Positions 1,624 to 58,535 of a stretch of DNA of 64,000 nucleotides are shown one piece after another (position 1 is the first letter of the stretch; every line of letters begins with the position of its first letter). The DNA comes from Jiella flava (GTDB lineage Bacteria; Pseudomonadota; Alphaproteobacteria; Rhizobiales; Rhizobiaceae). The stretch spans positions 1-64,000 of the forward strand of contig NZ_JAFMPP010000006.1 in NCBI RefSeq assembly GCF_017349315.1, written 5' to 3'. The translations under genes were made by a program, and so were the position numbers. The notes below the pieces were generated by a model. That model had not been told where the DNA came from, did not search any database, and was given only the letters and a program-made list of their open reading frames with translations.

Positions 1624-2976
1624 TCAGCGCGTGGCGGTCTTGGGAAATGGCGTCGCCGCGCCCGGCCGATTGCGCTGGACGATGTCGGCATCGCCGTCCG
1701 CATCTGCCAGCTCCCGGGCCTCGGCGGCCGCGGCATCCCCCGGCCGCTCCGTCGGCGGCATGCTCACCCCCTCGTCCGCCGCTCCCACCTGAGCGCTCTC
1801 GATCTTCTTTTGGATGCGGATCGCACGCATCAGCTCGGCCGCGCTCATGTCGCCAACCTCGAACTCGTCACCTTCCTCGCGGCGGATCACATCCTGGATG
1901 ATGCAAAGGACGAAGATCAGCACGGCCGGCAAGAGGTCGATCGAGATCGCCCCCGCCCAGGACGGCAGGAAGTCGCGGGCATAGCGGATCACCGCCTCGG
2001 GCGCCGAGAGCGGGGTGAAGCGCAGCGGCTCGACCTTCGGCCGGGCGAGGATTTCGTCGGCGGCGCTCGCCAACGCAGCACTCTGGGTCTTCACCGCGGC
2101 TTCGATGGTGCCAACGACGCGGCTTTGCCGATCGCGCAGATCGGCATCGACCCCATCGGCAATCGGGGCGATGAAGCTGCGACCGAGATCCTCCGCCGCC
2201 CGGCGCACCGCCGGTGCGACCGAGGTCTGATCAAGGGCGGTTATCAAGCCCGACAGCTGTACCGCCTCTTCGCCAAAGGAATTGGAGCGATCGGCAATCG
2301 GCCCCTGCGAGGAGACCAGCCGGCGCATCGCGGCCAAATGCGTCCCGCCTTGCTCGAACAGCGCCTTCACCTCTTTCCGCGAGCCCTCGATCTCGCCCTG
2401 CAAACTCGTCAGTTGATCCGACATCTGCCGCAGAAGCTGCACCACCGTGCCCGAGCCCGAGGTTCCCGTCAGAGCCCCGGATCGCGCCTCTTCCTGCGAC
2501 AGTTGCGAGAAGCGCTGGGAGGCGAGCTGAATATCCGGCAACAGGCTTTGGGCTGCCAGCGCATTCTCATGGGCCTCGTTGAGCTTTTGCTGATAGGCCT
2601 CGGTGGTCACCGCAAGATGCTGTTCCAGGGCTGCCGAACCGGCAAGCGCGGCGGCGTTCAACCAGGACGACATGGCGATGATCATCGCCGCGCCGATCGC
2701 CATGGCGAGATACAGCATGCGCCGGCCGCCAGCTTGGCGCACATGCGGCATAAGCCGCATCAGATAGGACCAGAAGGCGTATATCGCGACCGAGACTGCC
2801 GAGGCGTAGACGATCGCGCCGAGAAACACGGCGGTCTCGCTGCCGTTTAAAAGCTCGCGGACGCCGAGATAGGTGTAGACGCCGCTCGCCAGCGCCAGCA
2901 CGGACAGGGTGATCCGCGTCGTCGCATCGAGCCGCGTGACCTGTCCCCGCAAGGTGTAAGACTGGGATGCCCCCAT
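1624..2976 (-). CDS. conserved membrane protein with coiled-coil middle, function unknown
   Basis: A 450-residue protein I do not recognise. Three hydrophobic segments lie near the N-terminus (about 22-40, 49-72 and 87-108). A long Gln/Glu/Ala-rich region (about 115-310), probably helical or coiled coil, follows. A fourth hydrophobic segment (about 344-364) ends in a charged tail with an IQDVIRREEGDEFE motif and a low-complexity Ala/Asp-rich end. Two pairs of membrane segments bracketing a soluble helical domain could suit a scaffold or sensor in the inner membrane, but that is inference. It heads a probable two-gene unit with the ClpP-fold protein. A perfect TTAA-N7-TTAAC box lies about 48 bp upstream of its start, which suggests cell-cycle control by CtrA. 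Confidence 0.75.
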   Translation of the reverse strand: MGASQSYTLRGQVTRLDATTRITLSVLALASGVYTYLGVRELLNGSETAVFLGAIVYASAVSVAIYAFWSYLMRLMPHVRQAGGRRMLYLAMAIGAAMIIAMSSWLNAAALAGSAALEQHLAVTTEAYQQKLNEAHENALAAQSLLPDIQLASQRFSQLSQEEARSGALTGTSGSGTVVQLLRQMSDQLTSLQGEIEGSRKEVKALFEQGGTHLAAMRRLVSSQGPIADRSNSFGEEAVQLSGLITALDQTSVAPAVRRAAEDLGRSFIAPIADGVDADLRDRQSRVVGTIEAAVKTQSAALASAADEILARPKVEPLRFTPLSAPEAVIRYARDFLPSWAGAISIDLLPAVLIFVLCIIQDVIRREEGDEFEVGDMSAAELMRAIRIQKKIESAQVGAADEGVSMPPTERPGDAAAAEARELADADGDADIVQRNRPGAATPFPKTATR

Positions 2977-3038: not shown

Positions 3039-3278
3039 GACTTTCGTTCGGCTGAGGTAAGGGCGCGCGGCTGCGCCAGCTTGTCCCGGCCGGGGGTAAT
3101 TGCGGGAACGGTTAACGTCCGCAATGCATATCCGGCTACGGATCTTCGACCTGCGCATTCAACGCATAGATGTATTATATCAATAGATAAAAGCTATCAC
3201 GATATTTGCTATCACCTTGAAAATTGGCCAATGATAGAAATCCGATATGATGAAAACGCATAGCAGTCATGCCCATAT

Positions 3279-3307
3279 CTTGATTGCTCAATCTTCTGGA
3301 TCTATTA
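3279..3307 (+). promoter_or_regulatory. sigma-70-type promoter of the candidate sRNA
   Basis: CTTGAT (3279-3284) and CTATTA (3302-3307) are separated by exactly 17 bp and fit the rhizobial vegetative consensus CTTGAC-N17-CTATAT. Transcription would begin near 3313-3315. Upstream the DNA is A+T-rich and holds a direct repeat GCTATCAC at 3193-3200 and 3208-3215, plus an inverted half-site TGATAG at 3232-3237. These are candidate activator sites, for example for a LysR-type regulator. Confidence 0.65.
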
Positions 3308-3313
3308 TTCCAA

Positions 3314-3430
3314 TCCTCAGTCGGCGGGTTGACCACCTCCTCCCAATTCGGTCGCCTCCGGCTGTTTCCTCCCATATGGTCTTTCGAGACCAGCCTCATG
3401 CCGGGTTCGTTATGAGCCCGGCTTTTTTTT
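3314..3430 (+). ncRNA. candidate trans-acting sRNA with anti-Shine-Dalgarno motifs (NfeR1/AbcR-like, alpha-r14/r15 class)
   Basis: A transcript of about 117 nt is bounded by a good promoter and a strong terminator, with no credible reading frame inside. It carries the anti-ribosome-binding-site motif CCTCCTCCC at 3336-3344 and a second, TTTCCTCCC, at 3365-3373. These are followed by a perfect 6-bp hairpin with a TTCG loop (3377-3392) and the terminator stem (3400-3422). Size, C+T-rich unpaired motifs, and hairpin-plus-terminator layout match the rhizobial sRNA families NfeR1 (alpha-r14) and AbcR (alpha-r15), which base-pair with ribosome-binding sites of ABC-transporter mRNAs. Which of the two families cannot be decided by eye. 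The 5' end is predicted, not measured. Confidence 0.7.
3400..3430 (+). terminator. intrinsic terminator of the sRNA
   Basis: The stem GCCGGG (3400-3405) pairs with CCCGGC (3417-3422) and is followed directly by eight T residues (3423-3430). CTCAT (3395-3399) can also pair with ATGAG (3412-3416), giving an alternative fold that competes with the terminator stem. Confidence 0.85.
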
Positions 3431-3468
3431 GCGCGTGTGCCTGGGTTTCCGCCTCTCTTGCGGCGCCA

Positions 3469-3573
3469 AGAGCGCCCCGCGTCCGATCGGACGCGGAAAG
3501 GTCGCTCTCACCCTTTGAATCGACGCATCGTGCTTTGCCGAAAATCGATTCCGATTTTCGAAAGCACGATGCT
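3469..3573. repeat. intergenic palindromic mosaic repeat, copy A
   Basis: This is one of seven related intergenic copies in the window. It has a GC-rich palindromic block (CGCGTCCGATCGGACGCG) beside GAGCGACC-like sequence, then the core palindrome AAAATCGATTCCGATTTT with a nearby CACGATG/CATCGTG pair. Its orientation is opposite to copies B, C and E. The arrangement resembles the RIME and Bru-RS mosaic elements described in rhizobia and Brucella, but membership in either family was not tested. Confidence 0.75.
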
Positions 3574-3601
3574 GTTGGCCGCACCCTCGGCGGTCCCAAC
3601 G

Positions 3602-3634
3602 AAAAACCCGCCACCGGACGAATCCGTGGCGGGT
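3602..3634 (-). terminator. intrinsic terminator downstream of aatA
   Basis: On the minus strand ACCCGCCAC (3634-3626) pairs with GTGGCGGGT (3614-3606). A further three pairs form inside across a one-base bulge. The stem is followed by a run of T (3606-3602). It lies about 77 bp after the aatA stop codon and faces the sRNA terminator. Confidence 0.8.
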
Positions 3635-3710
3635 CGATCACGATCAGGGTCGCTTTGCGCAGATGTTCAAGGTCCGTGGACGCATGCCGCGGGCCCGTGC
3701 CAGCACCGTG

Positions 3711-4922
<1,212 letters not shown>

Positions 4923-8203: not shown

Positions 8204-11994
<3,791 letters not shown>

Positions 11995-43633: not shown

Positions 43634-44605
43634 ATGTCCGATCGTCACGTCAACATTCTCATCCTCGGCTCCGGCCCTGCCGGCTATACGGCTGCGATCT
43701 ACGCCGCCCGCGCGATGATGAAGCCGCTGATCGTCGCCGGCCTGCAGGAAGGCGGCCAGTTGACCATCACCACGGACGTCGAGAACTATCCGGGCTATGC
43801 CGATCCGGTGCAGGGCCCGTGGATGATGGAGCAGATGAAGGCGCAGGCGTTGAATGTCGGTGCCGAAATCGCCAACGACATCATCGTCTCCGCCGATCTC
43901 GACAGCCGCCCGTTCCGCCTCACCGGCGATTCCGGCACCCGCTATACCTGCGACGCTTTGGTGATCGCCACCGGCGCCCAGGCGAAGTGGCTTGGCCTGC
44001 CGAGCGAAGAAACCTTCCAGGGTTTCGGCGTCTCGGCCTGCGCGACCTGTGACGGCTTCTTCTATCGCGGCAAGGAGGTCGTGGTCGTCGGCGGCGGCAA
44101 CACCGCCGTCGAGGAGGCGCTGTATCTGTCGCATATCGCCAAGTCGGTGACCCTGGTGCATCGCCGCGACGCACTGCGGGCCGAGCGGATCTTGCAAGAG
44201 CGGCTGTTTGCCAGCGCCAATGTCGAGATCATCTGGAACAGCGCGATCGAGGAAATCGTCGGCGTCGCAAAACCGATGAAGTCGGTCAATGGCGTCAAGC
44301 TGAAGAATCTGGAGACCGGCGCGATCAGTGAGCGCGCGGTCGACGGCGTCTTCATCGCCATCGGGCATGCGCCGGCGGTCGAGCTGTTCACCGGCCAGCT
44401 GAAGCAGAAGCCGTCGGGCTATCTCTGGGTCGAGCCGGGCAGCACTAGGACCTCGCGCGACGGCGTGTTTGCCGCCGGGGACGTTGCCGACGACGTCTAC
44501 CGCCAGGCGGTGACCGCCGCCGGAATGGGCTGCATGGCCGCGCTCGAAGCCGAGAAGTGGCTCGCCGAGCAAGCGCTTTCCGAGGCGCGCGAAGCCGCCG
44601 AATAG
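43634..44605 (+). CDS. trxB: thioredoxin reductase
   Basis: A 323-residue flavoprotein that passes electrons from NADPH to thioredoxin. The FAD motif is LGSGPAGYTAAIYAARA near the N-terminus, the redox-active disulfide is CATC in VSACATCDGFF, the NADPH motif is VVGGGNTAVEEALYL, and the closing FAD motif is GVFAAGDVADDVYRQ. It precedes the LsrB/VtlR regulator by 69 bp, the order found across Hyphomicrobiales. Confidence 0.96.
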   Translation: MSDRHVNILILGSGPAGYTAAIYAARAMMKPLIVAGLQEGGQLTITTDVENYPGYADPVQGPWMMEQMKAQALNVGAEIANDIIVSADLDSRPFRLTGDSGTRYTCDALVIATGAQAKWLGLPSEETFQGFGVSACATCDGFFYRGKEVVVVGGGNTAVEEALYLSHIAKSVTLVHRRDALRAERILQERLFASANVEIIWNSAIEEIVGVAKPMKSVNGVKLKNLETGAISERAVDGVFIAIGHAPAVELFTGQLKQKPSGYLWVEPGSTRTSRDGVFAAGDVADDVYRQAVTAAGMGCMAALEAEKWLAEQALSEAREAAE

Positions 44606-44674
44606 GGCTGAACAGCCCCTGACCCGCGTTTGAGACCGGTGCACCCGGATCGATCGCTTGAAGGACCACCGATC

Positions 44675-45571
44675 ATGGCCCTCGACTGGGATAAGCTGCG
44701 GATCTTCCATGCGGCAGCGGAAGCTGGATCGTTTACCCACGCCGCCGATGCGCTGAATCTCAGCCAATCGGCGATCAGCCGGCAGGTCGCCGCGCTGGAG
44801 AACGAGATCGGTGTGCCGCTGTTTCACCGCCATGCCCGCGGCCTGGTTCTGTCCGAGCAGGGCGAACTGCTCTTCCAGACCGCCAACGACGTCTTGAAGC
44901 GTTTGGAAACGGTGCGCATGCAGCTCACCGAGACCAAGGAAAAACCCGCCGGCAAACTGCGGGTGACGACCACCGTCGGCCTCGGCTCCGGCTGGCTGAC
45001 CGATCGTGCCCGCGAATTCCTGGAGCTTTATCCCGACCTCGAATTGCAGCTGGTCTTCGACAACGAAGAGATCGATCTGACCATGCGCAAAGCCGACGCC
45101 GCGATCCGCCTGCGTCAGCCGCAACAGCCGGATCTGATCCAGCGCCGGCTGTTCACCGTGCATCTCCACGTCTATGCGGCGCCGAACTATCTCGCCCGCT
45201 TCGGCACGCCGGAGACGCTGGAAGATCTCGACCGCCACCGCATCATCACCTTCGGCGAACCGGCGCCGAACTATCTGCGCAATCTCAACGTGCTGGAGAC
45301 GGTCGGACTGCCGGAAGGCAAGGGCCGTAACCCGATCCTGCAGATCAACAATTTGATGGCGATCCGTTCGGCGATCGAAAGCGGCACCGGCATCGCTCTT
45401 CTCCCCGACTACATGATCGACAAACATTCAAAGCTCGTGCAAGTTCTACCCGAAATGGAAATGCCCGCGTTCGATACCTATCTGTGTTACACTGAGCAGC
45501 TGCGCAGCGCCGCGAAACTGAAGGTCTTTCGGGATTTCCTGATTTCCAAAGCCCGCACCTGGGCTTATTGA
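44675..45571 (+). CDS. lsrB: LysR-type regulator, LsrB/VtlR family
   Basis: A 298-residue transcription factor. Its winged helix-turn-helix (about 2-62) has WDKLRIFHAAAEAGSFTHAA and LSQSAISRQVAALE. The effector domain (about 90-290) has GKLRVTTTVGLGSGWLTD and AAIRLRQPQQPDLIQRRLF. The sequence and the trxB neighbour match LsrB of Sinorhizobium and VtlR of Brucella and Agrobacterium, which control redox, envelope and LPS genes and activate AbcR-type sRNAs. The ATG at 44675 gives the family N-terminus; an earlier in-frame start was discarded. The same window encodes an anti-SD sRNA at 3.3 kb, a possible target. Confidence 0.9.
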   Translation: MALDWDKLRIFHAAAEAGSFTHAADALNLSQSAISRQVAALENEIGVPLFHRHARGLVLSEQGELLFQTANDVLKRLETVRMQLTETKEKPAGKLRVTTTVGLGSGWLTDRAREFLELYPDLELQLVFDNEEIDLTMRKADAAIRLRQPQQPDLIQRRLFTVHLHVYAAPNYLARFGTPETLEDLDRHRIITFGEPAPNYLRNLNVLETVGLPEGKGRNPILQINNLMAIRSAIESGTGIALLPDYMIDKHSKLVQVLPEMEMPAFDTYLCYTEQLRSAAKLKVFRDFLISKARTWAY

Positions 45572-58054: not shown

Positions 58055-58535
58055 AGAGGGCAGACGCGAGGCCAGGGCTTCCGATGGGCGGGCCGTGCGT
58101 CGTTCTCGTTTCGTCGGACCCGCAAAACGGCCGGCCAATCAGCCGCCAAAGATCGGCACTGGGAATAGAAAGAGGTGGAAAGGGAATTGATGGTCGGCCG
58201 GCATTCGCGCGACGGTACGAGGAAACCGCCATTGCACGGTGCCGACCGACCCCCCACGGGACCCAGGAGATGCGGCGGACCTGAGCATTCCATGGGGTAA
58301 CTTTGAAGGTCGAGGCGTCTTATCGAACCGGAACCCTCTCAATTCCTTGATAGAACACTTGCTCAGAACCGACTCAAATGCAACTTCGTCCACCGGCGGA
58401 AAGGTGAAATTTTAACAACAAGGTTAAGACGACGCCAACCGTGTCGATGCTGCCGGCGAACTTTTCCCCAACTGATCATCATCGCCCCCATGCGTTCTTC
58501 GCCGGCGATTGCATCGCCCATGGCGGACAGCGCAA
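58055..58535. other. intergenic region between convergent uvrB and pleD
   Basis: A stretch of 481 bp. A TTAA-N8-TTAA pair near 58413 has one base too many for a CtrA box. No convincing terminator, gene or RNA was found. Confidence 0.4.

Follow-up and report, generated by a model that had tools for sequence, protein, structure and literature searches.

What kind of gene lies at positions 3314-3430 of the window (the whole stretch of DNA analysed, 64,000 nucleotides) is a question that Rfam leaves without an answer. At the gathering thresholds the locus is uncalled, and the sole match in the window is an EcpR1 (Atu_C6, RF02500) sRNA gene at 58187-58299 on the reverse strand, with 92.2 bits. The initial annotation placed here an anti-Shine-Dalgarno (aSD) sRNA of the "NfeR1/AbcR class". 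We propose, with a probability of roughly 80%, that the segment encodes a trans-acting sRNA that is the AbcR (ar15) orthologue of its lineage, activated by the LysR-type regulator LsrB/VtlR and carrying seeds that block the ribosome-binding sites of uptake and catabolic mRNAs. The anti-Shine-Dalgarno character is thus supported, but the two families named together in that annotation are separable; locus, architecture and covariance model point to AbcR (ar15), not NfeR1 (ar14), as the best identification.

The elements that the initial annotation had listed are all present where it placed them on inspection of the sequence. The predicted RNA is about 117 nt long (3314-3430, forward strand; its 5' end is a prediction) and has a folding energy of -45.5 kcal/mol (z = -4.2), which 0 of 200 shuffled sequences equal. 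It comprises a first hairpin (SL1, 3318-3364), a second hairpin with a UUCG loop (SL2, 3377-3392) and an intrinsic terminator (3400-3430) with a stem at 3400-3422 and a T8 tail running to 3430. The C-rich motif CTCCTCCC (3337-3344), identical to aSD1 of Sinorhizobium meliloti AbcR, lies in the SL1 loop, and a second motif, TTTCCTCCC (3365-3373), takes the aSD2 position between SL1 and SL2; both are unpaired in the predicted ensemble, the outcome that the initial annotation had looked for on folding. The arrangement CTCCTCCC-N15..45-TTTCCTCCC occurs once in the 64 kb and in 0 of 100 shuffles. The segment immediately before the terminator (3393-3399) reads GCCTCAT, and an A/U-rich stretch is missing there. 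The earlier statement that the locus contains no coding frame is not literally right, as at least two open frames span it, one of 179 codons on the forward strand (3247-3786) and one of 74 codons on the reverse strand (3175-3399).

Conservation of this RNA was followed at the level of both sequence and structure. A DNA search of 61 genomes detected it in 13, namely the window's own genome, the nine genus mates in the set and three other genera of the family, and in a 16-row alignment the CTCCTCCC loop and the TTTCCTCCCA segment are invariant while stem 1 is variable yet paired. Among the 30 model-matched loci (L153-L182, which include the window's own locus and a few near-identical pairs), CTCCTCCC is found in all 30 and TTTCCTCCCA in 29; the C-rich motifs are therefore conserved in relatives, and the lack of conservation that the initial annotation named as evidence against itself was not observed. 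Covariation was assessed in 29 sequences (28 distinct), made up of 27 of those 30 loci (three near-duplicates omitted) plus L009 and L027. Across these sequences, 95.2% of the cells are paired and both sides have changed in 13 of the 21 pairs, with a covariation score of 0.398 against 0.209 (sd 0.014) in shuffles, none of 500 reaching 0.398; the alignment was fitted to the model and hence leans towards it, and slid controls drop to 0.03-0.10. Because the stem of SL1 covaries and the loops are invariant, we argue that the product of the locus is an RNA, and a protein-coding reading of either open frame is disfavoured by the same covariation. The initial annotation is thus confirmed in that a compact, strongly folded sRNA gene is real and conserved here, with its transcription predicted.

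Assignment to a known family is less direct. A scan with loosened thresholds gave suhB/mmgR (RF00519) at 25.3 bits (cut-off 41), ar14 (RF02344) at 16.9 bits (cut-off 58.8) and SorX at 14.8 bits (cut-off 46.6); ar15 and suhB belong to one Rfam clan, and only the best match of a clan is retained in such a scan. An ar15 (RF02345) search over 41 genomes with strict filters returned no match in the window's genome even at E<=10, and the gathering score of 40 bits is not reached at the locus. No family thus attains its cut-off in the comparison with the suhB, ar14 and ar15 models that the initial annotation had suggested, and at Rfam's cut-offs this is the result that it had said would speak against it. 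Formal membership in ar15 fails, and the assignment draws instead on locus, architecture and a covariance model.

The model in question, R1, is a covariance model built from 16 RNAs, none of which is an Rfam ar15 hit. It scores the window's locus at 91.3 bits, a value to be read with the fact that this sequence is one of the 16 rows. R1 recovers ar15 genes at their own positions, with 17 matches in 14 ar15-bearing loci; 15 of these score 21-42 bits (E 9e-9 to 0.001), and the other two (17.6 and 16.3 bits) prove nothing because the noise of R1 reaches 17.5 bits at a false place on the opposite strand of L016. Some weak ar15-like places in a wider set of 32 loci score 12-23 bits. The distribution of ar15 was compared in 25 genomes: it is found at E<=0.001 in 0 of 10 genomes of the window's genus versus 13 of 15 other genomes of the family, eight of the 13 over the cut-off. 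Together with the matches between R1 and ar15, this distribution is most simply read as one gene that has diverged. Of 394 genomes in the family, R1 finds a match at E<=0.001 in 94, and in 34, the window's own included, the match attains 60 bits or more (nine candidates scored per genome). A draw of 297 genomes from the order gave no score above 37.0 bits outside the window's own genome; the remaining strong genomes were not among the matching ones there. Two genomes stand out for copy number. One (G084) is the sole member of the 34 with two strong copies (C12:149104-149214 and C31:71127-71242; 69.2 and 68.2 bits), perhaps a new AbcR1/2-like pair; another (G023; C17, C20 and C42) shows an unusual expansion, with ar15 exceeding the cut-off at four places and reaching E<=0.001 at a further two.

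The genomic neighbourhood provides a second line of evidence. Downstream of the RNA and convergent with it lies aatA (3711-4916, reverse strand), an aspartate aminotransferase gene named by homology (Aminotran_1_2) and by synteny, in the same arrangement as in Brucella and Paramesorhizobium. Relatives of aatA were fetched in 80 named genomes, and 16 loci, mostly picked for a C-rich motif near aatA, were scanned with Rfam. Among these, ar15 lies just downstream of aatA and convergent to it in Brucella (L042, L047 and L072) and Paramesorhizobium (L015), and farther from aatA in L054 and L089; in Aureimonas (L016, L017) and Aurantimonas (L020) the ar15 slot beside aatA is taken by an RNA like that of the window. 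Many other aatA loci, including those of Rhizobium, Agrobacterium and Ensifer, lack any C-rich motif in the nearest 900 bases of that strand, so that the link to aatA is not universal for ar15. Fulvimarina (L027) has the RNA about 3.3 kb from aatA and next to a relative of the window gene at 1624-2976 (reverse strand), the upstream neighbour, which encodes a conserved 450-aa protein without a Pfam match. Within about 1.5 kb of the RNA, the 30 model-matched loci have aatA in 23 cases, lsrB in nine, a relative of 1624-2976 in 17 and none of these in two.

The other characteristic neighbour of ar15 is lsrB/vtlR. One study reports that trxB-vtlR is a conserved pair in Alphaproteobacteria and that abcR1 and abcR2 lie downstream of vtlR in Agrobacterium tumefaciens (PMC7486931). 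An lsrB relative flanks the RNA on its other side in L015, L047, L097, L104 (whose RNA scores 39.3 bits with ar15, just below the cut-off of 40) and Aureimonas L016/L017; the Aureimonas gene order is lsrB-RNA-aatA, and a trxB-like frame is visible by eye beyond the LysR gene of L016. In the window's genome lsrB does not adjoin the RNA; such adjacency is seen in the nine model-matched loci just counted. A LysR-type gene at 44675-45571 on the forward strand (HTH_1, LysR_substrate) is 88% identical to the LysR gene adjoining the RNA in Aureimonas glaciei, and a trxB-like frame (43634-44605, by eye) is directly upstream of it, which places the trxB-lsrB pair (43634-45571) about 41 kb from the RNA. 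The name LsrB for this gene rests on the neighbourhood in relatives.

The shared slot bears on whether the RNA is a descendant of ar15 or an analogue, that is, an independent anti-Shine-Dalgarno RNA that arose at the aatA locus after ar15 had been lost. Such an origin would accommodate the failure of the Rfam ar15 model as well as a second seed and a putative Hfq region that differ from those of ar15, but it is opposed by a slot, an orientation, a box type and an aSD1 that are the same as in ar15, and by an intermediate RNA in G010 that scores alike with both models (41.4 bits with ar15, 42.2 bits with R1). We consider it quite improbable.

Descent from ar15 accords with the architecture. Like AbcR1/AbcR2 of Sinorhizobium, Agrobacterium and Brucella, the window RNA is about 115 nt long with two hairpins and a terminator, presents CUCCUCCC in the SL1 loop, followed by another C-rich seed in the SL1-SL2 interval, and is preceded by a candidate LsrB/VtlR-type box. 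It also shares the position beside aatA with the ar15 genes of Brucella and Paramesorhizobium, and its Aureimonas counterpart has lsrB/vtlR as a neighbour. The S. meliloti AbcR1/2 seeds are given as CUCCUCCC (aSD1) and UUCCCCUC (aSD2) in PMC8844928, and those of Brucella AbcR as CUCCCA (M1) and GUUCCC (M2) in PMC5461406. At the aSD2 site the window RNA agrees with AbcR in position and accessibility, but its sequence there is GUUUCCUCCCA, and its second seed is UUUCCUCCCA instead of UUCCCCUC. A further difference concerns the A/U-rich Hfq site before the terminator, described in PMC3712013 as well conserved in ar15; the window's genus lacks it, the corresponding stretch in the genus mates being similarly G/C-containing, whereas by eye a U-rich one is retained in several other genera. 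Unlike AbcR, moreover, the RNA was found in one copy, with lsrB 41 kb away and a score below the Rfam cut-off. A search of the literature available found no report of AbcR in Aureimonas or Aurantimonadaceae, though an earlier mention may exist, and returned for small RNAs with Aurantimonas only items that look unrelated.

The unusual second seed raises the alternative that the RNA is an mmgR (suhB-family) sRNA with an additional 5' hairpin. suhB is its best Rfam match, by way of GUUUCCUCCC and the terminator, and UUUCCUCCCA is nearly the seed of the suhB/mmgR model, in which a single-stranded GUUUCCUCCC seed likewise precedes the terminator. That model, however, lacks the CUCCUCCC hairpin, its cut-off is not reached, and a full mmgR gene scoring 64.9 bits is present elsewhere in the genome (C12:492503; L133) and is absent from the R1 matches at E<=10. 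The locus is that of ar15, and in none of the 16 scanned aatA loci did an mmgR attain the cut-off. An mmgR identity is accordingly very unlikely, and an NfeR1 (ar14) identity is the least probable of the three alternatives. The latter would account for the first hairpin having CCUCCUCCC in its loop and for the weak ar14 match over the whole length, but that match is far under its cut-off, and NfeR1 carries three identical aSD motifs as against two different ones here. Five places elsewhere in the genome match ar14 better, at 31-57 bits, though none attains the cut-off; three of these form a tandem array at C1:99219-99602, and R1 gives these three only about 10 bits. Locus, model scores and the separate genes in the same genome led us to reject both identities. 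The three tandem RNAs (G000, L125-L127) score 54-57 bits with ar14, contain two CTCCTCCC motifs each, and follow the end of a frame resembling a DUF1127 protein by eye. We take them to be reminiscent of the CcsR/cuckoo RNAs of Rhodobacter; a Cuckoo/CcsR-type identity, weighed for the window RNA on account of CCUCCUCCC, was dismissed as such a candidate sits elsewhere in the genome.

For the AbcR orthologue proposed here, expression would start from a sigma-70-like promoter on the forward strand with CTTGAT (3279-3284) and CTATTA (3302-3307) separated by 17 nt. The hexamers of the initial annotation are thus present with the expected spacing, but they are poorly conserved: they match at 9 of 12 positions in the window, and in the same scan none of the 29 other loci reaches 9, eight scoring 8, 14 scoring 7 and seven scoring 6. 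Poor hexamer conservation would fit an activator-dependent promoter. The published VtlR/LsrB consensus is GCAT-N3-TG-N3-T (PMC7486931), and an LsrB box is placed at -61 to -49 of the S. meliloti abcR1 promoter (PMC8844928). In the window GCATAGCAGTCAT (3258-3270) is one change from this consensus and is perfect on the other strand (3260-3272). A box located 56-62 nt upstream of the model start is perfect in 18 of the 30 loci and present in 24 (own locus included) once AG, the form in the window, is accepted in place of TG, compared with a shuffled mean of 0.02, and the six loci that miss it have near-variants at the same place by eye. As the consensus by itself is not rare (5 occurrences in 64 kb against 6.7 expected), the argument depends on position and conservation. 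The initial annotation was right in kind in postulating an activator, which it had linked to the GCTATCAC direct repeats (3193 and 3208) and a TGATAG half-site (3232), but the conserved site is the LsrB/VtlR-type box, and the predicted site at 3258-3270 makes LsrB/VtlR the likely activator. GCTATCAC occurs four times in the window against 0.83 expected, and is not conserved as direct repeats in a 17-row alignment; the region aligns by eye with GATAG/CTATC dyads in genus mates, and the repeats and the TGATAG half-site (3193-3237) may be further LysR-type half-sites. In S. meliloti, LsrB is reported to activate NfeR1 (PMC10746234), and abcR2 to use an RpoH-type promoter.

On this basis, the promoter is probably activated by the product of the LysR-type gene at 44675-45571, bound at about -56, and the transcript would fold into two hairpins and a terminator, leaving CUCCUCCC and UUUCCUCCCA exposed as anti-Shine-Dalgarno seeds. 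Where mRNAs for solute-binding proteins or catabolic enzymes have a G-rich ribosome-binding site, either seed would base-pair with it and so block translation. oppA (start 12488, SBP_bac_5), singled out in the initial annotation, was rejected as a special target: its duplex of -13.3 kcal/mol ranks 21 among the 53 starts in the window. Nor did solute-binding-protein leaders in general pair better with the RNA; 23 such genes of two Pfam families, one of them (L205) below Pfam's cut-off, did not differ from 49 window genes (p = 0.47), and the positive result is limited to GGGAGGAA leaders. Start codons for these comparisons and for the control gene pool were picked by a crude rule. An ABC-exporter-like gene recognised by eye at 10108-11994 on the reverse strand of the window has a leader, AGGAAACAGCGATG, that pairs with the sRNA part GCUGUUUCCU at -21.4 kcal/mol in the duplex prediction, making it a possible target.

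The perfect complement of the second seed, GGGAGGAA followed by ATG, occurs 36 times in the genome against once for the reversed pattern. Among the 30 of these 36 genes that were fetched, ten (L216, L219, L225, L226, L230, L233, L235, L237, L238 and L241) are assigned by Pfam to periplasmic solute-binding proteins or receptors and one (L223) to a permease; many of the remaining genes encode metabolic enzymes, and L218, L224 and L229 have no Pfam family, L224 being perhaps not a gene. A control of 40 genes, drawn at random from a pool of 81 in 400 kb whose leaders differ from GGGAGGAA yet are also strong (16S energy of -8 or better), contains one solute-binding protein (Fisher p = 0.0006), although GGGAGGAA has itself a 16S energy of about -11.9, so that leader strength is matched only in part. 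The enrichment is weaker when all transport genes are counted (11 of 30 versus 5 of 40, p = 0.018), and a second control, 16 places with AAAGGAGA that provided 14 frames of scannable length, has no solute-binding protein (p = 0.007). Towards 16S rRNA, the leaders of the 23 solute-binding-protein genes mentioned above are stronger than those of the 49 window genes (p = 0.026); part of the enrichment could therefore stem from leader strength alone, and strong leaders may simply serve abundant proteins. The enrichment fits AbcR-like silencing but does not single out the RNA at 3314-3430: seeds similar to its own occur in the mmgR and the ar14-like RNAs of the genome, so that silencing of these targets could just as well be due to either of them.

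A more tentative idea, which we hold to be possible but doubtful, is that in an Aureimonas/Aurantimonas-like group AbcR exchanged its second seed for an MmgR-like one, and that in the window's genus it also lost the Hfq site and moved away from lsrB, giving an Hfq-independent RNA with targets shared with MmgR and a rewired regulon. Nutrient uptake in rhizobia and related bacteria is tuned by the LsrB/VtlR-AbcR circuit; the AbcR assignment itself would add to its range a group that Rfam misses, and would supply natural variants of the second seed and the Hfq-binding region in a well-studied system. Addition of sequences like those of the 34 strongly matching genomes to the Rfam seed would improve annotation in this group.
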